From Lactobacillus panisapium (GTDB taxonomy: Bacteria > Bacillota > Bacilli > Lactobacillales > Lactobacillaceae), in assembly GCF_019469265.1 (NCBI RefSeq), contig NZ_CP048268.1, forward strand, positions 2,063,001 through 2,127,000: a stretch of DNA of 64,000 bases, written 5' to 3'. Of the stretch, positions 4,631 to 27,502 are shown one piece after another. Every line of letters starts with the position of its first letter. Position 1 is the stretch's first letter. A model generated the notes under the pieces. The model had not been told where the DNA came from and searched no databases. It saw only the letters and a program-made list of their open reading frames with translations. The position numbers and the translations under genes are program-made.

Positions 4631-5605
4631 GTGGCAACGGCAAAAGATGTCGCGGCACTAGCTGGTGTGTCAATTGGTTCAGTTTCGAATTATCTCAATG
4701 GCAGGCATCAAAGAAAAGCAACAGCTGAAAAAATCAAAACAGCGATGACGCAATTGGATTATCATCAAAACATTATTGCCAGTGGACTGAAGAAAAACAA
4801 AACCATGTCAATTGGGATTGTTATCAATCAGTTAACTGACTTTTTTTCTATGTCAATCGTTTCCGCTATCGAAGCTTATGTTGAAAAGTTCGGCTACAGC
4901 ATCATTGTGTGCGATTATCATGATGATAAAAAGCGCTTGGAACAAAAGATTGATTTTTTACTAAAACGCTCAATTGACGCAATTATTGTTTTTCACCAAG
5001 ATCAATCAACGCCAATGCTTGAAAAAATTGCTAATAGCAACATCCCGATTGTTGCTATCGATGCCCCCATTAATGGTCTTAAGACTGATGTTGTAGTCGT
5101 CAATAATTACGACTCTTCTAAAGCGGGCGTAAATTATTTGCTTAAGAAGGGCTACCGTCATATTGGCATTATCACCGGCTCATCTGAAAACTATATTGCG
5201 CAAAAAAGGCAGCAAGGTTATGAAGATGCCTTAAAAGAAAATGGTCTCACTGTAAAAAATAGTTATATTTGGTCGGGCGATTATACCATCAAGTCCGGAT
5301 ATGAAGGCTTTAACAGGCTGATTAAGCAAAATCCAGATCTCGATGCCATTTTTATCATTAATTACTACATGTCTTTAGGTGCCATTAAGGCCTACCGGGA
5401 AAAAAATCACCAGCCAAACATTGAGTTTCTTGTCTATGATCATTTCTTCGTAAATGATCTTTTCTTTCCAGAAATCAGTTCAATTGAACAGCCTGTAAAA
5501 CAGATTGGAACCACTGCTGGCAAACTGGTAATTGCCAAACTAACCAACCCTGCCGAAACAAGTTGTCAAACAGTTTACTGCCGTAACATTTTCCACCAAA
5601 TGTAG
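4631..5605 (+). CDS. LacI-family regulator of the downstream PTS/glycosidase operon
   Basis: 324 residues. The helix-turn-helix KDVAALAGVSIGSVSNYLNG occupies about residues 5-24, and a type I periplasmic-binding-protein-like sensor domain follows. GTG at 4631 is chosen, with AGGTGAT directly upstream, over GTG at 4622, which would overlap that ribosome site. It lies immediately upstream of a PTS IIB-IIC/GH170/IIA/GH29 operon. A 20-bp palindrome with a central CG at 5734-5753 is its likely operator. A cre overlaps the stop codon. The inducer is inferred to be the sugar carried by this PTS. Confidence 0.9.
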   Translation: MATAKDVAALAGVSIGSVSNYLNGRHQRKATAEKIKTAMTQLDYHQNIIASGLKKNKTMSIGIVINQLTDFFSMSIVSAIEAYVEKFGYSIIVCDYHDDKKRLEQKIDFLLKRSIDAIIVFHQDQSTPMLEKIANSNIPIVAIDAPINGLKTDVVVVNNYDSSKAGVNYLLKKGYRHIGIITGSSENYIAQKRQQGYEDALKENGLTVKNSYIWSGDYTIKSGYEGFNRLIKQNPDLDAIFIINYYMSLGAIKAYREKNHQPNIEFLVYDHFFVNDLFFPEISSIEQPVKQIGTTAGKLVIAKLTNPAETSCQTVYCRNIFHQM

Positions 5606-5617
5606 AAAGCGCTTGCT
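5604..5617 (+). promoter_or_regulatory. cre site (CcpA operator)
   Basis: AGAAAGCGCTTGCT matches the cre consensus WGNAANCGNWNNCW at every position. It overlaps the -35 hexamer (5613-5618) of the promoter for the sugar operon, a placement expected to repress by blocking RNA polymerase. CcpA binding itself is inferred. Confidence 0.75.
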
Positions 5618-5641
5618 TTTTTATCAACATGAGAATATAAT
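5613..5641 (+). promoter_or_regulatory. Sigma-A promoter of the PTS/GH170/GH29 operon
   Basis: TTGCTT at 5613-5618 and a perfect TATAAT at 5636-5641 are separated by 17 bp. It lies between the lacI-type gene and the PTS IIB gene. The resulting leader would be about 120 nt and contains the LacI-type palindrome. Confidence 0.7.
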
Positions 5642-5733
5642 TTAGCCTGAATTTGAAATGATTCATTTTTTAAAGAAGTACAGACTGCTTACTTTAAAAA
5701 GGCGGACTTTTTAGATTTTTTATTTTTTAGCTA

Positions 5734-5753
5734 AACTTGAACCGATTCAAGTT
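5734..5753 (+). promoter_or_regulatory. Putative LacI-type operator
   Basis: The arms AACTTGAA and TTCAAGTT are perfect inverted repeats around CCGA, with the central CG typical of LacI/GalR operators. It sits directly in front of the AAGGAGG ribosome site of the PTS IIB gene and downstream of the predicted transcription start. Repression by roadblock is therefore likely. Confidence 0.7.
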
Positions 5754-5767
5754 AAGGAGGAAAGATT

Positions 5768-6076
5768 ATGAATATTTTATTAGCCTGTGGTGGCGGTATG
5801 AGCTCATCTATTTTGGCAACTGCTTTAACTAAAGAAGCTGCTAAAAACCAGCAAAATTGGCACGTTCACGAAACCAGCATTGACAAGGTAGCTGATGACC
5901 TGAACGAAGGCGACTACCAATTGATTTTGCTAGCACCCCAAGTTTCTTTTAAAAAGAAGGACTTTGAAGAAGAAGCCGAGCAAAAACATGCCAAATTTAT
6001 TTTAATTCCAATGACGATGTACAACCCAGCTAAAGTAGATAAATTGTATGAACTAATTATCAAGGAGACAAAATAA
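5768..6076 (+). CDS. PTS lactose/cellobiose-family IIB component
   Basis: 102 residues. The phosphorylatable cysteine is C7 in the N-terminal loop LLACGGGMSSS, typical of CelA/LicB-type IIB proteins. It passes phosphate from IIA (8444) to the incoming sugar bound by IIC (6076). AAGGAGG lies 7 nt before the ATG. Its TAA stop overlaps the ATG of the IIC gene by one base, so the two are translationally coupled. Confidence 0.93.
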   Translation: MNILLACGGGMSSSILATALTKEAAKNQQNWHVHETSIDKVADDLNEGDYQLILLAPQVSFKKKDFEEEAEQKHAKFILIPMTMYNPAKVDKLYELIIKETK

Positions 6077-7371
6077 TGAACTTCGATACAGTTTCTGCAA
6101 AAATGGGCCAAATAGCTAACAATCGCTATTTAACCGCTATTAGAGACGGAATGTCGGTTATTATTCCGGTATCAATTATTGGCTCATTTTTCACTATTTT
6201 ACTGAACTTGCCAATTGATGCTTGGAAGAATTTTATTCAGCCATATGCCGCAATGTTATCCGTACCGATGTATTATTCCATCAACTTGATGGCAATTTAC
6301 TGTGTATTCTCGATAACTTCACATTTAGCTAAATACTATAAGATTGACCCAATCTCAACTAGTGTCTTAGCTGAAATGTCTTTCTTTATTCTAGCAATTG
6401 AACCAATTGTACTAGATAAGGCTAAAGCTGGCATGGCTCCTGGCACTTATATGTCAATTAGCAATATGGGTGCTCAAGGACTGTTTACTGCCATTTTATG
6501 TGCTATTTTCACCGTTGAAATTGTGCGCTTTTTCACCGAGCACAACTTGGTAATTAAAATGCCTGACGGTGTGCCTGCAGCAGTTGGTAAATCTTTCAGT
6601 GCCCTGCTACCAGGAATCTTAATTATTGTGATTTCGTTTGTGCTAAAAGAACTCTGCAACTTAGACATCAATAAGATTTTGATCTGGATTTTCTCACCGA
6701 TTGGCTACTTTGGTCGTGACACATTCTTATCAGCAATCGTGCCCGTTCTTTTAATTACCATTATCTGGTTGTTCGGGGTTCACGGAATGGTTATTGCTAC
6801 ACCAATTCTCTATCCTTACTGGTATGCCAACTTAAATGCCAATGTTACCGCTGTTGCTCATGGTCACGCTCCAGTTCACTTCATGACCGAACAATTTTTC
6901 CAATGGTTTGTTTGGGTTGGTGGTGCTGGTGCTACTCTTTCACTGGCAATCCTGTTATTAGTTTTAGGAAAATCTAAATTTAGTAAAACAATGGGTGCTG
7001 TCACTATCGTGCCCGCTATTTTCAATATCAATGAACCCCTGATTTTTGGTATTCCAATCATCATGAACCCGTATTTTGCCATTCCATTTGTCTTAGCGCC
7101 AACCGCAATGGCAGCTGTAACCTACGTAGCAATGAAGCTGCACTTAGTGGCTTATACAACAGCCGTTGCGCCTTGGACGCTGCCCGGACCAATCGGTGCT
7201 TGGATGGCAACCGGCTTTGACTGGCGCGCAATCGTTTTATGTCTTGTTAACATTCTGATTTCTCTCATTATCTATTACCCATTCTTCAAAATGTTTGACA
7301 ACAACCAAGTAAAATTAGAGAAAGAGGCTCAGGAAAATGAAGGGGATCTCAGTTTATCCGAACAAAACTAA
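6076..7371 (+). CDS. PTS lactose/cellobiose-family IIC permease
   Basis: 431 residues and polytopic, with about ten hydrophobic segments and the FNINEPLIFGIPIIMNPYFAIPF signature of the Lac/Cel IIC family. It forms the sugar channel in the membrane and releases the sugar as a 6-phosphate. Its 3' end overlaps the GH170 gene by 35 bp, which ties the hydrolase to this transporter. The substrate is not predictable from sequence. The neighbouring GH170 and GH29 enzymes point to an amino-sugar or fucose-containing glycoside. Confidence 0.93.
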   Translation: MNFDTVSAKMGQIANNRYLTAIRDGMSVIIPVSIIGSFFTILLNLPIDAWKNFIQPYAAMLSVPMYYSINLMAIYCVFSITSHLAKYYKIDPISTSVLAEMSFFILAIEPIVLDKAKAGMAPGTYMSISNMGAQGLFTAILCAIFTVEIVRFFTEHNLVIKMPDGVPAAVGKSFSALLPGILIIVISFVLKELCNLDINKILIWIFSPIGYFGRDTFLSAIVPVLLITIIWLFGVHGMVIATPILYPYWYANLNANVTAVAHGHAPVHFMTEQFFQWFVWVGGAGATLSLAILLLVLGKSKFSKTMGAVTIVPAIFNINEPLIFGIPIIMNPYFAIPFVLAPTAMAAVTYVAMKLHLVAYTTAVAPWTLPGPIGAWMATGFDWRAIVLCLVNILISLIIYYPFFKMFDNNQVKLEKEAQENEGDLSLSEQN

Positions 7372-8431
7372 AGTCGATGACTGTCTTGAATACATTGATC
7401 GTGCTGCTCAACTTGGCTACCAAAGGCTTTTTACAAGCTTATTAGAGCTAAATGATGACAAAGAAATGGTCTTACAAAAGTTTAAAACCGTTTTAAGCTA
7501 TGCCCATGAAAAAGGGATGTGGGTCAGCTTAGATGTTAATCCGGGCCTTTTTACAAACTTAAACATTAGTTACAATGACCTGTCTTTTTTTAAAAAACTA
7601 GGTGCCGACATCGTACGATTAGATTCAAATTTCGATGGTATGCCAGAGTCAATTATGACTTATAATTCCGAGAACTTAACGATTGAGGTCAATATTAGCA
7701 ACGATACTGGTAATATTGCGAATATTCTCACCTACCGACCGCTTAAGGACAAAATCATCGGTTGTCATAATTTTTATCCGCAACGATACACGGGACTAGA
7801 TACAGATTATTTTTTAAAGACTACGCGGAAATATCATGACCTAGGTTTGCGGACAGCCGCTTTTATCTCATCAAATCATGGTGCAATTGGACCGCATCCC
7901 TATAATGCTGGTTTACCAACGTTAGAAATCCATCGCGGTTTACCCCTTGAAAAACAGGCGCAGTATTTAATTAATACCCAGCTAATTGATGACATTATTA
8001 TTGGGAATGCATTTGCCAGTGATGACGAATTAGTTAAAGTGGCCAACTTGGAGGCAAAAATACCACAGTTTTTTGTCAAGTTTGCCCCTAACGCAACCAC
8101 TTTAGAAAAAGAAATTGTCTTAGCCAATTTGCACTTTAACCGGGGAGATATCAATAGCTATGCGATTCGTTCGACCTTCGTTAAGCTGAAATATAATAAA
8201 CGCGACATACCGGTCAATAACCCTGTCAACACTTTGACCCGGGGAATGATTACAATTGGCAATAATGACTTTGACCAGTACAAGGGCGAGCTTAACATTG
8301 TCAAGCAGGATATGGACAACCACGACCACCGCAAAAACGTTGTTGCGCAAATTGTCCCTAGTGATTTGCAGTTTATTGCCTTCATTCAGCCATGGGACAA
8401 ATTTAAGTTTATTGATGTAGATAATTATTAA
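7337..8431 (+). CDS. GH170 (DUF871, MupG-like) phospho-glycosidase
   Basis: 364 residues, full length for the DUF871 family. The best-known member, Staphylococcus aureus MupG, is a 6-phospho-N-acetylmuramidase (GH170) that splits MurNAc-6P-GlcNAc taken up by a PTS. The N-terminal KGISVYPN strand begins a TIM-barrel, and the C-terminal part has the small cyclophilin-like fold of the family. The ATG at 7337 lies inside the IIC gene with AGGAAA upstream. Unlike the S. aureus locus there is no murQ or murR here but a fucosidase, so the substrate may differ. It is cytoplasmic. Confidence 0.85.
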   Translation: MKGISVYPNKTKVDDCLEYIDRAAQLGYQRLFTSLLELNDDKEMVLQKFKTVLSYAHEKGMWVSLDVNPGLFTNLNISYNDLSFFKKLGADIVRLDSNFDGMPESIMTYNSENLTIEVNISNDTGNIANILTYRPLKDKIIGCHNFYPQRYTGLDTDYFLKTTRKYHDLGLRTAAFISSNHGAIGPHPYNAGLPTLEIHRGLPLEKQAQYLINTQLIDDIIIGNAFASDDELVKVANLEAKIPQFFVKFAPNATTLEKEIVLANLHFNRGDINSYAIRSTFVKLKYNKRDIPVNNPVNTLTRGMITIGNNDFDQYKGELNIVKQDMDNHDHRKNVVAQIVPSDLQFIAFIQPWDKFKFIDVDNY

Positions 8432-8443
8432 AGAAAGGCCGCT

Positions 8444-8779
8444 ATGGAAGGTTTAGAAGAAATTAGTTTTGAAATTATTAGTCATTCGGGGCAAGCAAAA
8501 GCAGAAATTATGGAGGCAGTTACCTGCTCTAAGTCTGACGCTAAAGACCCTGAGCCATTGCTGAAAGACGCCAAAGAAGAACTAAAGCAGGCGCAAAACT
8601 TGCACTTAAAGGTTTTAGCTGATTTTGCTAAAACTGGTAATAACAAAATTGACCCGTTATATATGCATGCTGAAGATCAAATGATTACAGCAGAAAGTTT
8701 TTTAGACTTTGCCACCGAGTTGATTAAGACCAACCAAGAATTGGTCAAATTGCGGCAAGAAGTAGCTAAAAAACAGTAA
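8444..8779 (+). CDS. PTS lactose/cellobiose-family IIA component
   Basis: 111 residues, all-helical Lac-type IIA. The active-site histidine is H75 in LYMHAEDQMI, with the metal-binding Asp three residues on, as in LacF/CelC. It takes phosphate from HPr and hands it to the IIB encoded at 5768. It lies 12 bp after the GH170 gene and so belongs to the same operon, an IIB-IIC-hydrolase-IIA order. Confidence 0.93.
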   Translation: MEGLEEISFEIISHSGQAKAEIMEAVTCSKSDAKDPEPLLKDAKEELKQAQNLHLKVLADFAKTGNNKIDPLYMHAEDQMITAESFLDFATELIKTNQELVKLRQEVAKKQ

Positions 8780-8843
8780 TTTTTCGTTTAAGTTAGTAGC
8801 AATTGACCAGATGATAATATAAGCAATTGAAAGTATATAGATA

Positions 8844-10073
8844 ATGAAGATAGAAACAAAAATAAGCAATTTTGAAAAGATGGGGATTGGCCTCTTCGTC
8901 CATTGGGGACTCTACTCTAAATTTGCCAAGGGCGAATGGTCACAGAACATCTTAAATATTCCGACCTATCAGGCGGCGTTTAATGAATTCAACCCAAAAG
9001 AAGAAAATATTCGCAGCTTAGTTAGACTAGCTAAGAAGTGCGGCTTTAAGTATATTGTTCTTACTGCCAAACATCATGATGGCTTTTACCTCTTTGATAC
9101 CAAGAATATTAATAACTTTGACAGCGTCCATACCCCATTTCACAAAGATGTTATCAAAATTTTTACCGATGAATGTCACCGGCAAAAGATTGCTCCCTTT
9201 ATCTATTACGCTACTTATGATTGGAATAACGTTAAGTACCGCGACGACTTTAACGGCTATTTAGCCGAAATGCGTCAACTAATTAAACTTTTATGCACTA
9301 ATTACGGCGAAATTGGTGGTTTCTGGTTCGATGGTAATTGGGATAAGCCACATGCAGATTGGCAAGAAGATTTGCTTTACCAAGAAATCCGGCAATTACA
9401 ACCTAATGCCATTATTACCAATAATACCGGACTAGAAAAACAAGGCGTAACGGAAGGGCGAGAAGTTGACGTATTAACATTTGAGCGTGGTAATCCAACT
9501 GCAATTAAGCATGTTCAAAACCAACGCTATTTAGCCGCTGAAACTTCGCTAACACTCAATAAACACTGGGGCAATGCCCAAAATGACCTTAATTATCTTT
9601 CTGGGCACCAGTTAATTGAGCAAATTTGCCGGACGCGCATGGTCGGCGCTAACCTATTAATTAATGTTGGACCAGAATTTGATGGTTCACTGAATATCCA
9701 CTGTCGTTCACTAATCGAACTAGTTGGTCAATGGATGGCTATCAACCATGAAGCAATTTACCATACCAATAATTATGAGCATTCAACCTACTCCACTATT
9801 TCTAATGACCATGATTTTATTAAAGGTAATTACTTATTTGTTGATGACCTAGGAAATATTGGCAACAGCAACGTCGTTCTAGGTGGCGAACAGGCACGTG
9901 AATTAGTTTTCACTAATTTTGCAAAACAAAAAATTGACCATATCGCTTGGCTAGACAACCAAAAGCCATTAGCATTTAAACAAGATCAAGCAGCTAACAC
10001 ACTTAAAATTGCAGCTGATGGCTTTGAATATGGCACTAATTTAGTCGAGCGCGTGGCCAAAATCTATTATTAA
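8844..10073 (+). CDS. GH29 alpha-L-fucosidase, intracellular
   Basis: 409 residues without a signal peptide. GH29 features are FVHWGLYS (residues 18-25), the KHHDGF motif (76-81) and the nucleophile D163 in GGFWFDGNW. It is shorter than many fucosidases and ends soon after the catalytic barrel with a small beta-rich tail. It would remove alpha-linked fucose from a sugar imported by the PTS in the same operon. The ribosome site is weak, and the gap to IIA is 64 bp. The linkage (alpha-1,2/1,3/1,4/1,6) and whether a phosphorylated substrate is accepted cannot be read from sequence. Confidence 0.88.
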   Translation: MKIETKISNFEKMGIGLFVHWGLYSKFAKGEWSQNILNIPTYQAAFNEFNPKEENIRSLVRLAKKCGFKYIVLTAKHHDGFYLFDTKNINNFDSVHTPFHKDVIKIFTDECHRQKIAPFIYYATYDWNNVKYRDDFNGYLAEMRQLIKLLCTNYGEIGGFWFDGNWDKPHADWQEDLLYQEIRQLQPNAIITNNTGLEKQGVTEGREVDVLTFERGNPTAIKHVQNQRYLAAETSLTLNKHWGNAQNDLNYLSGHQLIEQICRTRMVGANLLINVGPEFDGSLNIHCRSLIELVGQWMAINHEAIYHTNNYEHSTYSTISNDHDFIKGNYLFVDDLGNIGNSNVVLGGEQARELVFTNFAKQKIDHIAWLDNQKPLAFKQDQAANTLKIAADGFEYGTNLVERVAKIYY

Positions 10074-10129: not shown

Positions 10130-10170
10130 AAGCTTAGCTTTGCTATTCGTAGTGAAGCTAGGCTTTTTTA
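10130..10170 (+). terminator. Rho-independent terminator of the GH29 operon
   Basis: The arms AAGCTTAGCTT and AAGCTAGGCTT pair with one G-T wobble around a 14-nt loop and are followed by a T tract. This ends the 5.7-10.1 kb operon. Confidence 0.8.
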
Positions 10171-10197: not shown

Positions 10198-10860
10198 CTA
10201 TTGCCACTGCTCTTGCTCATACGCCATTTGCCAAAACCGGCATTCATAATAGCTGCTACGCACAAAGGCTTTCTGCATCTGCCCACGCTCTCGTTCTGAA
10301 GCTTGCGCAGCTAAGTCATTGGTCAACTTTAACATGCGACTAACATTGACGTCATACCAGTCGCTATCATAGGTCTCAATCCATTTCTGGTAAAGTGCAA
10401 CCGGTGAACCCGTTTGCGCCAATGCTTGACCAATTTCCTGGTAAAGCCAGTAGCAAGGCAAAATGGCACAGACACAAGGTGCAAGACCATCTTTTTCAAG
10501 CGTTTTAAACAGATGATTGACATAGGCATACGCCGTTGGTGCTGCGTCAGTTTCTTTAATTTCATTGGATGTGACTTTTAATTCCGCTAAAAAATGCTGT
10601 TGCATCGTTATTTCACATTCTTGCAAATCTTGGGCACCTGCCAGCAAGAATCGTTGCACTTCTTGACTAGTAGTTTTCTTTGCCATTAGCCGGTGAATTT
10701 TGCTAAATTCAGCTAAATAGTACCTGTCTTGCAATAAGTAAAACCGAAAAGTAGCCAATGGCAATTGGCCACTTTGCAGTTCTTTAACAAAGGGCTGCTC
10801 CATGCTTTTTTCCCACAAATCCTTTGCCGCATAACGCAATTGTGCTGTAAATTCAGTCAT
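10198..10860 (-). CDS. tenA: Thiaminase II / aminopyrimidine aminohydrolase
   Basis: 220 residues of the TenA family. The catalytic cysteine is C136 in ILPCYWLYQEIG, the conserved Asp is D45 in LLQDRYYL and the C-terminal Glu lies in SYYECRFW. TenA hydrolyses amino-HMP from degraded thiamine to HMP for re-use by ThiD. It diverges from the riboswitch-thiM-thiD-thiE operon and has no TPP aptamer of its own in the gap, so its control differs from that of the operon. Confidence 0.93.
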   Translation of the reverse strand: MTEFTAQLRYAAKDLWEKSMEQPFVKELQSGQLPLATFRFYLLQDRYYLAEFSKIHRLMAKKTTSQEVQRFLLAGAQDLQECEITMQQHFLAELKVTSNEIKETDAAPTAYAYVNHLFKTLEKDGLAPCVCAILPCYWLYQEIGQALAQTGSPVALYQKWIETYDSDWYDVNVSRMLKLTNDLAAQASERERGQMQKAFVRSSYYECRFWQMAYEQEQWQ

Positions 10861-10981: not shown

Positions 10982-10991
10982 TGAAACCGAT

Positions 10992-11078
10992 AACACGAGG
11001 GGTGCCTTTTTGAAGGCTGAGATGGCGAATAGCCAGACCCTTTGAACCTGTAAGCTAATTCTTGCGTAGGAACGTGTC
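10992..11078 (+). promoter_or_regulatory. TPP riboswitch (THI element)
   Basis: The conserved blocks are present in order: GAGGGGTGCC, GGCTGAGA, ACCCTTTGAACCTG and CTTGCGTAGGAA. The closing P1 helix pairs ACACG (10993-10997) with CGTGT (11073-11077). It controls thiM-thiD-thiE by transcription termination; the expression platform follows at 11074-11122. Confidence 0.96.
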
Positions 11079-11122
11079 AAAATCCACTTATGCTTTGACA
11101 CAAATATGTCAAAGCTTTTTTA
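11074..11122 (+). terminator. TPP-controlled intrinsic terminator with competing antiterminator
   Basis: GCTTTGACA (11092-11100) pairs with TGTCAAAGC (11107-11115), followed by six T: a terminator. GTGTCAAA (11074-11081) can instead pair with TTTGACAC (11094-11101), breaking the terminator. CGTGT in that antiterminator strand is also the 3' side of aptamer P1. TPP binding should therefore free the terminator and switch the operon off. Confidence 0.85.
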
Positions 11123-21934: not shown

Positions 21935-22336
21935 CTATTCATCGTTATCATCATTAGTGTCTGTTATTGTTACTTGAAAAAGCTGCTGTCTTGCAGCCGC
22001 AATCATTTGGTCAAGATCAATTGGCTGCTTATTTTTAACCGCCAAGGCTAATTCAAGTGTGAAGGGCAAATTGATGCCCGTAATCACGTGAATATTATTT
22101 GCTAAAAACTGGCTAACAACTTGATTCACACTGCCAAAGCCCAAGTCCGTTAATAAATAGAACTCATCATCTGGATTAAGCAAAACACTTATTTGCGCTT
22201 TTAATTCCTCTGTTCCCTCATTATGCATATAGGCACAGACAGATGTCACAATTTCTTGGTCACCCGTCAGACCGGCAAGCGTTTCTTGGTAGCCACGTGC
22301 CAACTTATAATGAGTGATTACAATTATTTTTTTCAT
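21935..22336 (-). CDS. PTS mannose/fructose-class IIA component
   Basis: 133 residues of the ManX/LevD-type IIA fold. The phosphorylatable histidine is H9 in IIVITHYKLARG. ATG at 22336 is chosen because AGGGA lies 6 nt upstream, while the ATG two codons earlier abuts it. It lies 9 bp after the IID stop. It accepts phosphate from HPr and transfers it to the IIB encoded first in the operon. Confidence 0.92.
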   Translation of the reverse strand: MKKIIVITHYKLARGYQETLAGLTGDQEIVTSVCAYMHNEGTEELKAQISVLLNPDDEFYLLTDLGFGSVNQVVSQFLANNIHVITGINLPFTLELALAVKNKQPIDLDQMIAAARQQLFQVTITDTNDDNDE

Positions 22337-22345
22337 AAACATTCC

Positions 22346-23164
22346 CTATTTCAAAAACCCGAAAGCCGCACCAAACATTGCAATAACAATGAATAATAGA
22401 ATTACCCAAGTCATGCTTAGCTTTTTCGATTTTAAAAGTTTGTATGCCAATAAAACTAATAAAGCAGGAATCATTTGCGGCAGAATTTTATCAAGCATCG
22501 GCTGAATCTGCATTGAAACCTTGCCAAACTGAAATTTTAATGGTGAAGTAACGGAAATAACCGAGCCAATTAGGGCGCCAACCACAGTAATTCCCAAAAC
22601 TGAAGCTGCTTCCGTTAAATAATTGATTTTATCGCCATATTCAGTGATAATCTTTGAACCTTGACGATAACCAAATTCAAAACAATGCATCCGTAAGAAA
22701 AAGATTACTGCAATTAAAATTCCCCAAAGCAAAATGCCAAACGGATTATTTTGTAGTGCCATGTAAGCAGCAATCGAACCCATGATAGTCGGAATCATTG
22801 TCATTAAAAGTGAGTCACCAATTCCTGCTAAAGGACCCATTGTCCCCACTTTAAAATCATTGATGGCACTTTTTGCTGCCAGTCCCTGCTTTTCCTCCAT
22901 GGCAACACATGCACCAAGAACAATTGCGGCTAACCAAGGTTGGGTATTATAGTATTGAAAATGATTGTCGAGTGCTTCAACGTAGTCGTCATCGTTACGA
23001 TAAATTTTTCGTAAAATCGGTGACAAGGCATATGCAACAGAGGCCCCTTGCTGAGTTTCATAGTTAAAGGTTTCAACACTCATTAACCAGCGGTAATTTG
23101 CCTTGTGCAGATCCTTTTTAGTTACGATTGGCCCGTATATTTTCTGGTCATTTTTCTTTGTCAT
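22346..23164 (-). CDS. PTS mannose/fructose-class IID component
   Basis: 272 residues, ManZ/LevG family. The N-terminal cytosolic part has LYNTQPWLAAIVLGA-like signatures (here YYNTQPWLAAIVLG), and KVGTMGPLAGIGDSL precedes the membrane helices. With IIC it forms the membrane translocator. Its start overlaps the IIC end (stop and ATG interlaced), so the two are translationally coupled. Confidence 0.94.
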   Translation of the reverse strand: MTKKNDQKIYGPIVTKKDLHKANYRWLMSVETFNYETQQGASVAYALSPILRKIYRNDDDYVEALDNHFQYYNTQPWLAAIVLGACVAMEEKQGLAAKSAINDFKVGTMGPLAGIGDSLLMTMIPTIMGSIAAYMALQNNPFGILLWGILIAVIFFLRMHCFEFGYRQGSKIITEYGDKINYLTEAASVLGITVVGALIGSVISVTSPLKFQFGKVSMQIQPMLDKILPQMIPALLVLLAYKLLKSKKLSMTWVILLFIVIAMFGAAFGFLK

Positions 23165-23165
23165 C

Positions 23166-23954
23166 TTATTCGTCCTCTCCTATGCCAGCAGTATTTACTG
23201 CACTAGCAGCTGCTCTATTTTGTCCTTCTTTTTCAGCCTGCTTATACGTTGCAAACGCAGCCGCAAAGCCAATAATTGCTGCACCAATAATCGGTACTTT
23301 CAAAAAGGCGGCTAAGAAGAAGCCAATTAACAAATAATTAACCAGTTTTCCCGTAGGCATATAATTTAGCAGCATTGCAATTCCAACTGCTGGTAACATT
23401 TCACCGGCAATTGTTAAACCGCTCATAAACCATTTGGGCATTACCTGTAAAATAAAGTTTACTGCCGATTGACCTAAAGTTACTGCAATAAAAACGGGAA
23501 TGGCAGCCGATAAACCAAAGAACAACGGTCCAAGCCAAGTTACGGCGGTCATTTTTTTAAACTGATGCGCATCCGCATAGCTTTTAGCTTTTTTAGCAAC
23601 AAAGCCATTTAGGATTTTAACAATGACATCTAATTGGACACCCAGCATCCCAACTGGTAATCCAATTGCTAACCCAGCACTTTTACCCATCGACACACCA
23701 AATGCGGTCGCAATAATTGCGGTTGTCCCATAATCTGGAACTGATGAGCCACCAAAGCCAGCAACACCCAATGACATTAATTGAACCGTTCCACCAACTA
23801 GTAAGCCGGTCTGAATATCACCCATGATAATGCCCGTGAAAAGGCCCCAAAATACTGGATAGTTAACAAAAAGCATTGGGATACCGTAATAATCAACGTG
23901 CTTAATGAATGCAAGAAGTGTTAAAAGAATAATTTGTAATATTGTAAAGTGCAT
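23166..23954 (-). CDS. PTS mannose/fructose-class IIC component
   Basis: 262 residues, ManY/LevF family, highly hydrophobic. It shows the class signature GGTVQLMSLGVAGFGGSSVP and ends in a charged tail with GIGEDE. It builds the sugar channel with IID. It lies 5 bp after the IIB gene. The sugar specificity cannot be read; the GH172 partner suggests a furanose-containing oligosaccharide. Confidence 0.94.
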   Translation of the reverse strand: MHFTILQIILLTLLAFIKHVDYYGIPMLFVNYPVFWGLFTGIIMGDIQTGLLVGGTVQLMSLGVAGFGGSSVPDYGTTAIIATAFGVSMGKSAGLAIGLPVGMLGVQLDVIVKILNGFVAKKAKSYADAHQFKKMTAVTWLGPLFFGLSAAIPVFIAVTLGQSAVNFILQVMPKWFMSGLTIAGEMLPAVGIAMLLNYMPTGKLVNYLLIGFFLAAFLKVPIIGAAIIGFAAAFATYKQAEKEGQNRAAASAVNTAGIGEDE

Positions 23955-23959
23955 TTTAG

Positions 23960-24451
23960 TTATCTCGCTCTACTTTCTAAAAATTCTTTGGTCACATTAA
24001 CTTCTTTGTCTGCCGGAACATATTGCGACACTAGTTCTACTCCAGCATCTAAAAGTGCTTCATAGTCGGCAACTTCATCCTTATCAGCAAAGGCTCTTTT
24101 GGATAACTCAATGCCATTTTCACGTGCAGTTGTCCCACCAATAATTAACTTAGTAATTTTTACGCCACTATTAACTAAGTCTAAAAAGGTTTTTGGTTCT
24201 TTTGCCAAAACTAAGAGTTTTTCTGGATCATATTTACCGCTCTTAAAATTAGTTAAGGCCTTTTCTTCCGTAATAATCGAAATCGCATTACCCGCTGGCC
24301 GAGCCATTTTCATTGTTGCCTTGCTGATCGGGTCATTTGCAGTGGCATCATCGATGACCATTACTCGATTTGAGCCCGATTCTGGTGCCCACTGCGTAAC
24401 AATAATTCCATGTAGTAAGCGGTTGTCAATTCTGGCTAACACAACACTCAT
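23960..24451 (-). CDS. PTS mannose/fructose-class IIB component
   Basis: 163 residues, LevE-type. The phosphorylated histidine is H14 in ARIDNRLLHGIIVTQW. It is the first gene of the IIB-IIC-IID-IIA-GH172 operon, with AGGAGGAAG before the ATG. The operon is preceded by a sigma-54 promoter, fitting the LevR-type activator encoded upstream. Confidence 0.94.
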   Translation of the reverse strand: MSVVLARIDNRLLHGIIVTQWAPESGSNRVMVIDDATANDPISKATMKMARPAGNAISIITEEKALTNFKSGKYDPEKLLVLAKEPKTFLDLVNSGVKITKLIIGGTTARENGIELSKRAFADKDEVADYEALLDAGVELVSQYVPADKEVNVTKEFLESRAR

Positions 24452-24504
24452 TTTTCTTCCTCCTTAAAAGCAACTAGCTTTTTTACTTGTTTCACTTACC
24501 TATT

Positions 24505-24520
24505 AGCAATTTTTATGCCA
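24505..24520 (-). promoter_or_regulatory. Sigma-54 (-24/-12) promoter of the PTS/GH172 operon
   Basis: On the minus strand TGGCAT-N5-TTGCT fits the sigma-54 consensus TGGCAC-N5-TTGCW with one change in the last base of the -24 block. The GG and GC spacing is correct. It lies about 55 bp upstream of the IIB start and downstream of the gene for a GAFTGA-containing activator. Confidence 0.85.
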
Positions 24521-24543
24521 AGTTAGTGTCCAAAAAACAGCAA

Positions 24544-24568
24544 TTGAATAACTTCTGCGTGTTATCAA
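24544..24568 (-). promoter_or_regulatory. Candidate upstream activator site for the LevR-type regulator
   Basis: TTGAATAAC and GTTATCAA form an imperfect inverted repeat with an 8-bp spacer, 24-48 bp upstream of the -24 element. Its use by the LevR-type protein is inferred from position only. Confidence 0.35.
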
Positions 24569-24632
24569 GCTATTTTTTATTAATTACCACAATTGCAACT
24601 GTCATTTTTGCCACTAAGCAAATAGCAATAGT

Positions 24633-27365
24633 CTACTGTCTAAGCTTAATTTTATTGCCCGAATTAAAAATTAATTCGTAAATATAGGCAATTTCCGTTA
24701 GTGGTATTTTAATGTTGTATATTTCCTCAAGTGGAGCAAATGAGCTGTGAATGACCGCCATTCCCTGGCGCTTTTTTGGGCTATCGTGAAAATTACGTGG
24801 GCTATTCTCAAGTGATTGGTTCCGAATAATTCGTTCAATCATGCAACTGACATGGACATATAGCGCCATAACAATTTGGTTTGGCAAGCGCGGTGTCAAA
24901 TAATTATTTAGGTGCCCAACGCACTGGCTAATATTTTTAATTACCGCCTTAGTATCCAAAATGGTTAGCGAGTTGATTACCCGTTCAATACTAAAGTTTT
25001 TTAAGACGGCATCATTGAAATTATCCAGGTCTTGGCTCGTGAGGTCATTTTTTAGAGCTTCTTTTAAAACGTTTAGCTTAGAGCCGTTTACCAGCTGGTC
25101 AATCGAGATAAAGGGGATATTCTGATAATTAGGATTAGCGGTGCCAATAATTGTTAAAATATTATACTTGCGCTTGAGCACATCTTCCTGATCATCAATT
25201 TTTAAAGCATCATATGAATACGCCTTAATCATTACCTTAGTCTTAGCCGGTAAGCTTTCTTTGATCATGTCTTTAATCTTAATTGCTGTACCTACACCTG
25301 TCGTGCAACAAACGATGATTACGTCTTGTTTAATCATTTTGGGAAAAATCGTCCGGTAATCATTATGAATATTTTGGTTCATATTCTGCGCCATTGCTTC
25401 AATTGGGCGTCGCTTCTTTAAGTAATCAGCCGCAAACAGTGCTAACTGCGTTGATACATTATTAAAAATTACAATTGGAAAGCTAATGTCTAGTTCTAGT
25501 AACTCGGGAATTTTTTCAAGTGAGCCCATGTCGGCCATCAGCACTAAACCATTATTGACATGCCGCACTCGGATGTAGTCAGCCACCTTTTGTGCAATAG
25601 CCGCTGGTTCAATATCAATAGGCATATCAAAAGAGTCAAGCAGAGGCTCGCCCATAATTTTATTAACTGCATCTGCGATGCTGCTTGCAGTTGAATAGCC
25701 ATGCGCTAAGAGAATGCAGTGAACAATGTCGGTGCTTTTTTCGCGTTGGATATTTTCAAGATAAAGCGTCAAAAACAGGCGGTCAACTTCATCAGTATAA
25801 AGATTCAAAAGATTGTTAACCGTATCCAAAATCAGCTGCACGACTGGCTTAACGTAAGTAGTTTCATTTAGTTTAGCCACAATCTCGTCCGCCATCTTGC
25901 CTTCCGCAACGGAAATAGGCCAAGATTTTTCTTGACGAAAATAAAAATAGGAGGAGATTGCCACAATAATATTGCCATTAAATTCATTTGTTTGATCATT
26001 TTGCAAGTAGCCGACTTTTTGATCGAGTGTCTTTTTAATTAGGGCTAGTGGCAATTCACCAATTTTTAAATCATCTTTTTTAAAAATCAAATAGTCACAC
26101 AAAGAATTAATGGCCTCAATCGCTTTTGCCTTAAATGATGAAAACTTTTCTTGGCGGTACAATAGAAAAATTTTTTGGATAGTTTTTTGAATATAATTTA
26201 ACCGTTGCGGACTACCCAAAAAGGAACTGACTTTACTATCCGGCTTAATTAACAAATCACTTTTATTTGCGGGTAAAACTACTCCTTCATCCAGATTGGC
26301 TAATAGTAATTCCTGTGGTAAATCGGCAAGTTTGATATTAACTTGTGTCGCTTGTGGATTTTTTTCTAAGCTACTTGCGACAGAAAGAAGCACGTCATTT
26401 TTTAACTGGCCAATATTGTTGGCAAAACTGGCACTCGTGAGTGCTAAAAACGCCTGACTGTTAATGCTAATGGCTTTATTAATCTTTTTGGCATGCTCAA
26501 TATAAAAATAGATGATTAGGGCCCGAATTTCGCTAGTAGTTCGCTTTTTTAGCGGCGGCATGGTAATTTGAACCGGCATTCGCCGAATAAAAGTTACCAA
26601 AAAACTGCTTTTAATTTCTTCGGTTGTTGCGCAGACTAGGCGGACATTAACCTTTTTATTTTTACCAGCAGCGCCCAATGGAGAAATCATGCCAGTATCA
26701 AGGTAAGAAAACAGCTTTTCCTGCCCCTTGGCATCGAGTCGATGAACTTCATCCAAAAAAAGCATCCCACCATCTGCTTGATCGAATAACCCCGCGTGAT
26801 CTTGCTCAGCTCCGGTAAAAGCGCCTTTAACATAGCCAAATAAAGTACTAGTCAACAGTTCCGGATTATCGGCATATTCAGCACAATTGAAACTGATGAA
26901 TTTACTATCAGGTGCAAGATAGTTTTCTGCCACACAATAATCAAAGTATTTTTTTGCCAGATAGCTTTTACCCGTCCCAGTCTGACCATTAATTAAAACT
27001 GGCAAACTACCAGGATACGAAGCAGCAGCTTTGAGCTTTTTTATCTGGCTGTACAGCGATTTATCATTACCAATAACGGTTGCAAAAACATCTTCGCCTT
27101 TTAAGTGCTGCAAAGTAGCCAAACTATCATATTCGCTAGCCAGTTCACGGCCTGCTTCTTGTTCCGCCTTCTTTTTAGCAAGAAAAATCGCCGGACGTGT
27201 ATTAACTTTAATTAGCTTGTTTTCTTTGACCAGCTCGTTTAAATAATGACTGACCGTATTGCGTTTAAGCGCTAATTTATCAGCCAATTCTTGGGTTGAC
27301 AGATAATGATCCTTTTCTTGGCTATCTTGCTCAATTAACGACAGTAATTTTTCTTTTACACTCAT
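24633..27365 (-). CDS. levR: LevR-type sigma-54-dependent activator with PTS regulation domains
   Basis: 910 residues. Order: N-terminal winged HTH (about 20-60), AAA+ domain with Walker A GQTGTGKS (127-134), the sigma-54 contact loop GAFTGA (181-186) and Walker B MLFLDE (201-206). A PRD, an EIIA-mannose-like domain (CILLAHGYSTASS), an EIIB-like segment (VIIVCCTTGVGTA) and a terminal PRD follow. ATG at 27365 is chosen with GAGG upstream; a longer N-terminus has no ribosome site. PTS phosphorylation of the PRDs sets activity in the family. It should activate the neighbouring PTS/GH172 operon. Confidence 0.92.
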   Translation of the reverse strand: MSVKEKLLSLIEQDSQEKDHYLSTQELADKLALKRNTVSHYLNELVKENKLIKVNTRPAIFLAKKKAEQEAGRELASEYDSLATLQHLKGEDVFATVIGNDKSLYSQIKKLKAAASYPGSLPVLINGQTGTGKSYLAKKYFDYCVAENYLAPDSKFISFNCAEYADNPELLTSTLFGYVKGAFTGAEQDHAGLFDQADGGMLFLDEVHRLDAKGQEKLFSYLDTGMISPLGAAGKNKKVNVRLVCATTEEIKSSFLVTFIRRMPVQITMPPLKKRTTSEIRALIIYFYIEHAKKINKAISINSQAFLALTSASFANNIGQLKNDVLLSVASSLEKNPQATQVNIKLADLPQELLLANLDEGVVLPANKSDLLIKPDSKVSSFLGSPQRLNYIQKTIQKIFLLYRQEKFSSFKAKAIEAINSLCDYLIFKKDDLKIGELPLALIKKTLDQKVGYLQNDQTNEFNGNIIVAISSYFYFRQEKSWPISVAEGKMADEIVAKLNETTYVKPVVQLILDTVNNLLNLYTDEVDRLFLTLYLENIQREKSTDIVHCILLAHGYSTASSIADAVNKIMGEPLLDSFDMPIDIEPAAIAQKVADYIRVRHVNNGLVLMADMGSLEKIPELLELDISFPIVIFNNVSTQLALFAADYLKKRRPIEAMAQNMNQNIHNDYRTIFPKMIKQDVIIVCCTTGVGTAIKIKDMIKESLPAKTKVMIKAYSYDALKIDDQEDVLKRKYNILTIIGTANPNYQNIPFISIDQLVNGSKLNVLKEALKNDLTSQDLDNFNDAVLKNFSIERVINSLTILDTKAVIKNISQCVGHLNNYLTPRLPNQIVMALYVHVSCMIERIIRNQSLENSPRNFHDSPKKRQGMAVIHSSFAPLEEIYNIKIPLTEIAYIYELIFNSGNKIKLRQ

Positions 27366-27502
27366 GCCAATTCCCTCATCACATAACTTTATGACTATGT
27401 TAGCGATTTTATGTAAACGGTTCAAGCAGAATTAAGTTGTCCAAGCTCGGCTATTCTATCAATTCGGCAGTGCTGCACAAAGCAGCAAAATCACTTGAAC
27501 AC

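Follow-up and report, generated by a model that had tools for sequence, protein, structure and literature searches.

Within glycoside hydrolase family GH170, MupG is the sole biochemically characterised member, and ChbE has been assigned by mutants (PMC12791066, 2026; this and the other papers are cited here for their accessible parts). MupG cleaves N-acetylmuramic acid 6-phosphate-N-acetylglucosamine (MurNAc-6P-GlcNAc), and the accessible part of that report gives the catalytic residues of GH170 as not yet known in 2018 (PMC6262408). ChbE of L. paracasei, encoded in the operon of a cellobiose-class phosphotransferase system (PTS), is needed for growth on N,N'-diacetylchitobiose (PMC12791066). 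AlfB, an intracellular GH29 fucosidase, acts on fucosyl (Fuc)-alpha1,3-GlcNAc, including that of Lewis X, and the L. casei mannose PTS carries this disaccharide without coupled phosphorylation (PMC6109692). Here, we analyse a six-gene operon of Lactobacillus panisapium at positions 4631-10073 of a 64,000-nt stretch of contig NZ_CP048268.1 (positions 2,063,001 to 2,127,000, forward strand; hereafter the window), which combines a lactose/cellobiose-class PTS with a GH170 enzyme and a GH29 alpha-L-fucosidase. With modest confidence, we read it as a catabolic operon under LacI control whose substrate is a small GlcNAc oligosaccharide bearing alpha-L-fucose, core-fucosylated N,N'-diacetylchitobiose being the likeliest candidate. 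The fucoside part of this reading is well supported; the exact glycan, its linkage and its source are what we infer.

Gene content and regulatory sites

The six genes, all on the + strand, run in the order LacI, IIB, IIC, GH170, IIA and GH29 (positions are numbered on the window throughout; L denotes a locus, G a genome and P a listed protein). Open reading frames (ORFs) and Pfam matches thus bear out the order of the original prediction, made from the sequence alone, together with its 35-bp overlap of IIC and GH170 (7337-7371). The overlap itself means little, because it is absent from two relatives (L037 and L129) whose IIC is shorter. The LacI-family regulator (4631-5605; PF00532/PF00356; GTG start) is the presumed local repressor of the operon. 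The PTS components are all of the lactose/cellobiose class: IIB (5768-6076; PF02302), IIC (6076-7371; PF02378), which scores 354.4 bits against the lactose/cellobiose IIC model TIGR00410 (cut-off 236), and IIA (8444-8779; PF02255). Cys7 of IIB and His75 of IIA, the latter within HAEDQ, are intact and kept in 13/13 aligned rows each; we take these to be the phosphorylated residues.

The GH170 gene (7337-8431) encodes a putative cytoplasmic 6-phosphoglycosidase that carries both family domains across its full length, MupG_N (PF19200, residues 3-236, 2.9e-85) and MupG_C (PF05913, residues 244-358, 1.3e-35). Against solved structures it scores 340.8 bits with PDB 1x7f and 104.7 bits with 2p0o. The product of the last gene (8844-10073) belongs to GH29 by its PF01120 match (5.2e-55) and by a conserved Asp/Glu pair; Asp163 and Glu214, invariant across 10/10 aligned rows, are the likely catalytic residues. 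PDB 8ozt has Gln at the position equivalent to Glu214, which looks like an acid/base mutant. Because neither hydrolase shows an apparent signal peptide by eye, we take both to be cytoplasmic.

The best solved relatives of the fucosidase are 8ozu (371.5 bits), 8ozt (370.2 bits) and 9hyj (367.3 bits). Over 306 residues, a stretch of 8ozu shares 86% identity with the GH29 protein of Lacticaseibacillus chiayiensis (P0329, locus L140), which lies with a divergent mannose-class PTS, and 8ozu is probably AlfB or near kin; a text search for this entry gave no paper whose title concerns a fucosidase. The window GH29 looks AlfB-like, AlfB itself entering the comparison through its description and through 8ozu. 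Its linkage specificity is only a lead, because the window GH29 clade forms a separate deep branch of the GH29 tree, with 43-49% identity to mannose-PTS-linked and other members not of the window type.

The gap between LacI and IIB contains two TGAA-N4-TTCA boxes. The first predicted operator, TGAAATGATTCA, lies at 5654-5665; the second, AACTTGAACCGATTCAAGTT (5734-5753), is an inverted repeat that contains the motif at 5738-5749. A box that we presume to be of the cre type, GAAAGCGCTTGCTT (5605-5618), overlaps the LacI stop codon and is a possible CcpA site. All three elements are retained in four close relatives (L037-L040): operator 1 stands at an equal offset in each, the inverted repeat of operator 2 is kept in L037 and L038 and replaced by TGAAACGATTCA in L039 and L040, and the cre-like core AAGCGCTTGC occupies the same position in these four and in L048. 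In a more distant relative, L129, the TGAA-N4-TTCA motif again occurs twice and is accompanied by a cre-like box. In L048, a single operator-like box and a single cre-like box precede GH29. A search of two stretches of the Enterococcaceae locus L171 (see below), including that before IIB, gave no TGAA-N4-TTCA match. Downstream, an intrinsic-terminator-like hairpin on the + strand (10130-10165; a 16-pair stem followed by a T-run) would end the operon. The scan returned 6 such sites against a mean of 5.1 in shuffles, so that only position and stem length favour this hairpin, which has the longest stem of the scan and is the sole + strand site outside a gene. The same scan found no + strand terminator-like site between the operon genes, and the six genes would be co-transcribed.

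Conservation of the locus and replacement of its fucosidase

We collected strong GH29 matches from a genus sample of 75 genomes (14 matches >380 bits) and a family sample of 397 Lactobacillaceae genomes (16 matches >500 bits). Two genomes (G000 and G049) occur in both samples, giving 28 loci whose neighbourhoods were all read (28/28); a 158-amino-acid GH29 fragment (L143, in G135), with no PTS gene recognised nearby, was excluded. All 28 loci adjoin a PTS. Twelve of them have a lactose/cellobiose-class PTS together with GH170 (window, L036-L041, L045, L047, L048, L129 and L130), and the remaining 16 (L042-L044, L046 and L131-L142) have a mannose-class PTS, as called from matching window genes that are mannose-class by Pfam, in a layout resembling that published for L. 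casei alfB. Two of the latter loci carry a hint of a muropeptide link, in that an AlfB-like GH29, a mannose PTS and a beta-lactamase-family protein are joined by murQ in L133 (88-5378) and by an MR_MLE-family enzyme in L142 (35-6228).

The whole block is retained in four other Lactobacillus genomes (L037-L040, of which L039 and L040 are assigned to Lactobacillus helsingborgensis because their GH29 is 99.8% identical to P0253) and in another genus (L129). A shared gene order, for which a search across Lactobacillaceae had been suggested, is found in these loci, in the window and, from IIB onward, in L036, whose contig starts there; three further loci are reordered. These are L048 of L. laiwuensis (from G031; LacI-GH29-IIB-IIC-GH170-IIA), L130 of Companilactobacillus sp. 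RD055328 (GH29-IIB-IIC-GH170-IIA-kinase-murQ) and L045 of L. gigeriorum (IIB-IIC-IIA-GH29-GH170, the last cut by the contig end). LacI precedes the PTS/GH170 genes and is 75-78% identical to that of the window in L037-L040, 63% in L129, 43% in L048 and 44% in L171. Comparison across these genomes indicates that the operon is a conserved unit, beyond chance. Among the plasmid matches listed, no GH29 of at least 60% identity and no copy of the operon was seen. Truncated GH29 genes (58% identity) lie beside IS30 on two Latilactobacillus curvatus plasmids (L180, 7938-8666; L181, 3620-4120). At L045 (5032-12815) and L177 (3937-10673), GH170/PTS genes stand next to a SelA-like pyridoxal phosphate enzyme, and L045 additionally carries KDGP aldolase, neighbours that to us are reminiscent of D-glucosaminate pathways.

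The strongest case for fucose removal as part of the pathway comes from Enterococcaceae, where 105 genomes gave two GH29 matches at E <=1e-60 (221 and 209.5 bits), far below those of the 28 loci. Locus L171 of this family (genome G490) has the arrangement LacI-IIB-IIC-GH170-688-amino-acid protein-IIA, with identities to the window of 44% (LacI), 41% (IIB), 59% (IIC), 53% (GH170) and 34% (IIA). The 688-amino-acid protein matches a single PDB sequence, 6tvk 'Alpha-L-fucosidase' (7.5e-130), which is the GH151 fucosidase ALfuk2 (PMC10154630). GH29 and GH151 share faint similarity here (22-27% over 118-173 residues). Because the fucosidase role is kept in L171 while the enzyme family differs, fucose removal appears to be part of the pathway; this swap was read directly in that one locus.

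A shared-contig test extended the comparison to the top 120 homologues for every one of three enzymes: GH170 (of 1223), GH151 (of 3176) and GH29 (of 1023). Proteins were matched where the longest contigs were identical in size, with sizes shifted by 1-50 bases as the control. GH170 and GH151 matched 18 times and GH170 and GH29 8 times, against control averages of 0.41 and 0.48; 14 and 7 of these matches, respectively, fall on contigs of 40 kb or less. GH151 and GH29 matched once (2360 bases), at chance level. The result suggests that the size-matched pairs share contigs, which does not imply adjacency, with about one match possibly due to chance; for the other 94 of the 120 GH170 proteins the test is uninformative. 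Outside the family, of the nine highest-scoring GH170 places, seven were read over 17 kb (G494 and G453 were left out): the place at 53% identity (1/7) has a fucosidase, and those at 45-48% identity (6/7) have neither GH29 nor GH151 within 17 kb. A Cetobacterium relative of GH151 lies in a fucose cluster with an ABC transporter, not a PTS.

In a 68-row GH170 tree, the window enzyme falls in a clade of 46 (support 100/99) that comprises 19 GH151-linked, 16 GH29-linked, 5 murQ-linked and 6 rows of unknown linkage; 25 of the 46 were picked for a shared-contig match, which biases the fucosidase share upward. L160 (an overlapping ORF) and L045 (150 amino acids) were left out of the GH170 trees, and the 2p0o-type L035 enzyme (end branch 9.43 in an earlier tree) was omitted from this one. 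Rows linked to GH29 and those linked to GH151 are for the most part grouped apart, the five murQ-linked rows group with L130 (100/93), and the clade excludes the DUF3284-linked (chb-type) enzymes. The GH170 proteins of L041 (Lactobacillus sp. ESL0679) and L047 lie outside it, with those of the murQ-linked L158 and L159. In the IIC tree, the window protein clusters (100/98) with 11 other GH29-linked and 7 murQ-linked IICs, distant from the DUF3284-linked ones.

Proposed pathway and competing substrates

The substrate would be GlcNAc-beta-1,4-(Fuc-alpha-1,3 or 1,6)-GlcNAc, a structure that occurs in N-glycans of plants, insects and animals, at their base. For a set of PTS, GH170 and fucosidase, the substrate would need a beta-glycosidic bond in addition to an alpha-fucosyl one, because a fucosyl-GlcNAc disaccharide offers GH170 no bond, and GlcNAc-beta1,4-(Fuc)GlcNAc would be the smallest common fitting glycan that we can name. 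IIA, IIB and IIC would import it and phosphorylate it at C6 of the non-reducing GlcNAc, a site that we place on GlcNAc because fucose has no 6-OH. GH170 would hydrolyse the beta-glycosidic bond to give GlcNAc-6P and fucosyl-GlcNAc, and GH29 would release fucose and GlcNAc from the latter. The two cleavages may also occur in the opposite order; GH170 probably cuts first, by analogy, because AlfB and GH151 enzymes have been reported to act on fucosyl disaccharides. GlcNAc-6P would reach glycolysis via NagA and NagB: the genome has nagA (277.2 bits, over the cut-off) and a nagB-like gene (224.6 bits, just under the cut-off of 236.9). Fucose would probably be excreted, since no match to fucose isomerase (PF07881) was found in the genome. 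Comparative evidence thus favours a single pathway for the PTS, GH170 and the fucosidase, as had been proposed for a fucosylated amino-sugar glycoside; the exact substrate is what we infer.

N-glycans of plants and invertebrates can carry core alpha1,3-fucose, attached to their innermost GlcNAc (PMC10154630). L. paracasei BL23 used fucosyl-alpha1,6-diacetylchitobiose only with the AlfR2 repressor gene inactivated, uptake then proceeding via the AlfH permease (PMC12791066). If our reading is correct, the operon would add uptake by a PTS to that permease route for a fragment of the fucosylated N-glycan core, which is a common host and food glycan. Two bee-gut papers contain no 'fucos' term in their accessible parts.

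The L. panisapium genome has one GH29 gene and three GH170 genes: that of the window, a chb-type gene accompanied by an IIC of its own, and a gene closer to 2p0o beside EIICBA and murQ. At locus L035 (3804-11284; genome 1815803-1823283), GH170 paralogues of two types lie in tandem, together with a chb-type IIC, EIICBA, an isochorismatase gene and murQ. Because chb-type and murQ-linked GH170 genes exist elsewhere in the genome, dedicated genes seem to serve the chitobiose-type route and the MurNAc-type route, so that the window GH170 would have a third role. We tentatively propose, somewhat short of even confidence, a third GH170 specificity class for core-fucosylated chitobiose, in which a distinct clade works alongside a lactose/cellobiose-class PTS and a fucosidase that can be either GH29 or GH151. 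If so, the reducing-end genes would define the substrate: a fucosidase would indicate fucosyl-GlcNAc, a MurNAc/anhydroMurNAc kinase with MurQ would indicate muropeptide sugars, and neither would indicate plain chitobiose, with L130, which has both gene sets, as a bridge. The fucosidase-linked clade also yields a testable prediction for enzymes of lactic acid bacteria named 'MupG family' or 'DUF871', and the name MupG may mislead for its members.

Gene content, conservation, the operators, the L171 swap, the nagA and nagB-like genes and the absence of a fucose isomerase match carry our reading of a fucosylated-chitobiose operon. Several observations weigh against it, beginning with the wholly genomic nature of this evidence. 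The GH29 tree needs just two label changes, so that many independent pairings are not implied. At L041 and L047, GH29 is convergent with GH170 on the opposite strand and therefore outside one operon. A wider GH29 profile scan of genome contigs gave at least 593 relatives; among the best 80, four had E <1e-90, of which L049 and L050 repeat mannose-PTS loci described above. The other two, L051 (39% identity) and L068 (44%; its stretch begins 175 bp ahead of the GH29 gene), come from Clostridia bins and gave neither a PTS nor a GH170 match in their vicinity, so that the evidence for the pairing is confined to Lactobacillaceae. Shared-contig matching is indirect, and P0032, the sole GH29-labelled row in a GH151 group, lies on a 5.7-kb contig and is possibly a chance match. 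In the accessible part of the report, GH151 activity is on fucosyl disaccharides, not trisaccharides (PMC10154630), so that the glycan could be another fucosyl-GlcNAc. The window IIC is 54-59% identical to the IICs of seven murQ/kinase clusters (L151-L157), and its GH170 is 52-53% identical to those of five of them and 39-40% to those of L153 and L156. Finally, L130 (7513-13672) unites GH29, IIB, IIC, GH170, IIA, a BadF-type kinase and murQ. A MurNAc link is possible on account of these last two points.

An unlikely alternative is a Lewis-type or other fucosyl oligosaccharide, such as Gal-beta-(Fuc-alpha)GlcNAc, for which GH170 would serve as a 6-phospho-beta-galactosidase. A lactose-class PTS and a fucosidase would suit this, the Fuc-alpha1,3-GlcNAc of Lewis X is a substrate of AlfB (PMC6109692) and GH151 enzymes tolerate fucose on either Gal or GlcNAc (PMC10154630); however, the GH170 precedents use amino-sugar disaccharides, and the operon holds no sugar-metabolism gene beyond the six (galactose-6P genes were not searched for genome-wide). 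Quite unlikely, in our view, is MupG-like peptidoglycan recycling of MurNAc-GlcNAc or GlcNAc-MurNAc, in which GH29 would be a passenger or remove something else. Besides the resemblance of IIC and GH170 to clusters with murQ and BadF-type kinase, the five murQ-linked rows in the GH170 clade and the gene sets of L130 and L133, the genome does carry murQ (1815818-1816687). The statement that murQ and murR are lacking thus holds for the operon and not for murQ in the genome, about 250 kb away (murR was not searched for genome-wide). Yet the operon has neither murQ nor a kinase, the genomic murQ sits with its own EIICBA and 2p0o-type GH170, and fucosidases of two families accompany this GH170 clade. 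Two independent activities, with the PTS and GH170 serving plain diacetylchitobiose and GH29 serving fucosyl-GlcNAc imported unphosphorylated by another carrier, have precedents in ChbE (PMC12791066) and the L. casei mannose PTS (PMC6109692) but are improbable given the separate chb-type GH170 and IIC of the genome (L035), the mere 27-33% identity of the window IIC to DUF3284-linked IICs and the replacement, rather than loss, of the fucosidase in L171.

Fucosidase-linked systems may be bridged to murQ-linked ones by L130. Loci L172, L175 and L176 combine GH170 and a lactose-class PTS with murQ and a BadF-type kinase; AnmK was confirmed by Pfam in L172, and L175 and L176 have a look-alike start. 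Their gene content suggests GlcNAc-6P-(anhydro)MurNAc, the reverse of the MupG arrangement, as the GH170 substrate. On Borreliella americana cp26 (L182, 3989-5086), the product annotated as 'alpha3-beta1 integrin-binding protein' is related to DUF871/GH170, with 42.5% identity to the window GH170, and adjoins PTS IIC, IIA and IIB annotated as cellobiose or lactose/cellobiose; its role may be to hydrolyse the phospho-disaccharide that this PTS delivers.

Elsewhere in the window, which has a GC content of 36-44%, a TENA/THI-4 gene lies on the minus strand (10201-10860), and a thiamine pyrophosphate riboswitch (10988-11089; 77.2 bits) lies upstream of genes that seem thiamine-related on inspection. 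Minus-strand genes at 21938-27425 encode a mannose-class PTS (IIA, IID, IIC and IIB) and a sigma-54-type activator with a PRD domain.

Comparison with known systems

We found no literature description of a GH170-fucosidase PTS pairing in a search that covered few subscription papers, in keeping with the original statement that no characterised pathway has exactly this set; the set is, however, not exclusive, as gene order varies and L171 uses GH151. MupG, the model GH170 enzyme of the original prediction, is one precedent and not the sole guide, ChbE being another (PMC12791066). The S. aureus mupG-murQ-murP-murR system likewise combines a PTS with a GH170 enzyme acting on a beta-linked amino-sugar disaccharide phosphate (PMC6262408); in contrast, the window operon lacks murQ, murP and murR, and its GH170 is nearer 1x7f than 2p0o, S. 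aureus MupG itself being compared by description only. ChbE is 26% identical to MupG (PMC12791066). By gene content and tree, a MupG/peptidoglycan operon is not our first choice, and we retain it as a rival.

The L. casei alfB/alfR/alfEFG system likewise has an adjoining PTS and its own regulator, with a GH29 that may be of the same subfamily, and differs, as described in the accessible part of the report, in its mannose-class PTS, unphosphorylated transport and lack of GH170 (PMC6109692). The operon studied here has a lactose/cellobiose-class PTS and LacI in place of a mannose-class PTS and AlfR; at L134, an alfB-like locus, the regulator is of the GntR type. GH151 ALfuk2 (PDB 6TVK) has a homologue in place of GH29 in L171, yet belongs to a different CAZy family.

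The L. paracasei chb operon (ChbR, ChbABC, ChbD and ChbE) shares a lactose/cellobiose-class PTS with GH170, a local repressor and an amino-sugar disaccharide substrate, and differs in having the DUF3284 protein ChbD and, in the accessible part of the report, no fucosidase (PMC12791066). DUF3284-linked relatives have IICs 27-33% and GH170 enzymes 40-44% identical to those of the window, ChbE itself being compared by description only. We reject identity with the chb operon on account of the separate GH170 and IIC clades and the lack of the DUF3284 gene chbD; DUF3284 (PF11687) has no match in the genome. We rate the operon as a new variant of the known PTS/phosphoglycosidase operons.

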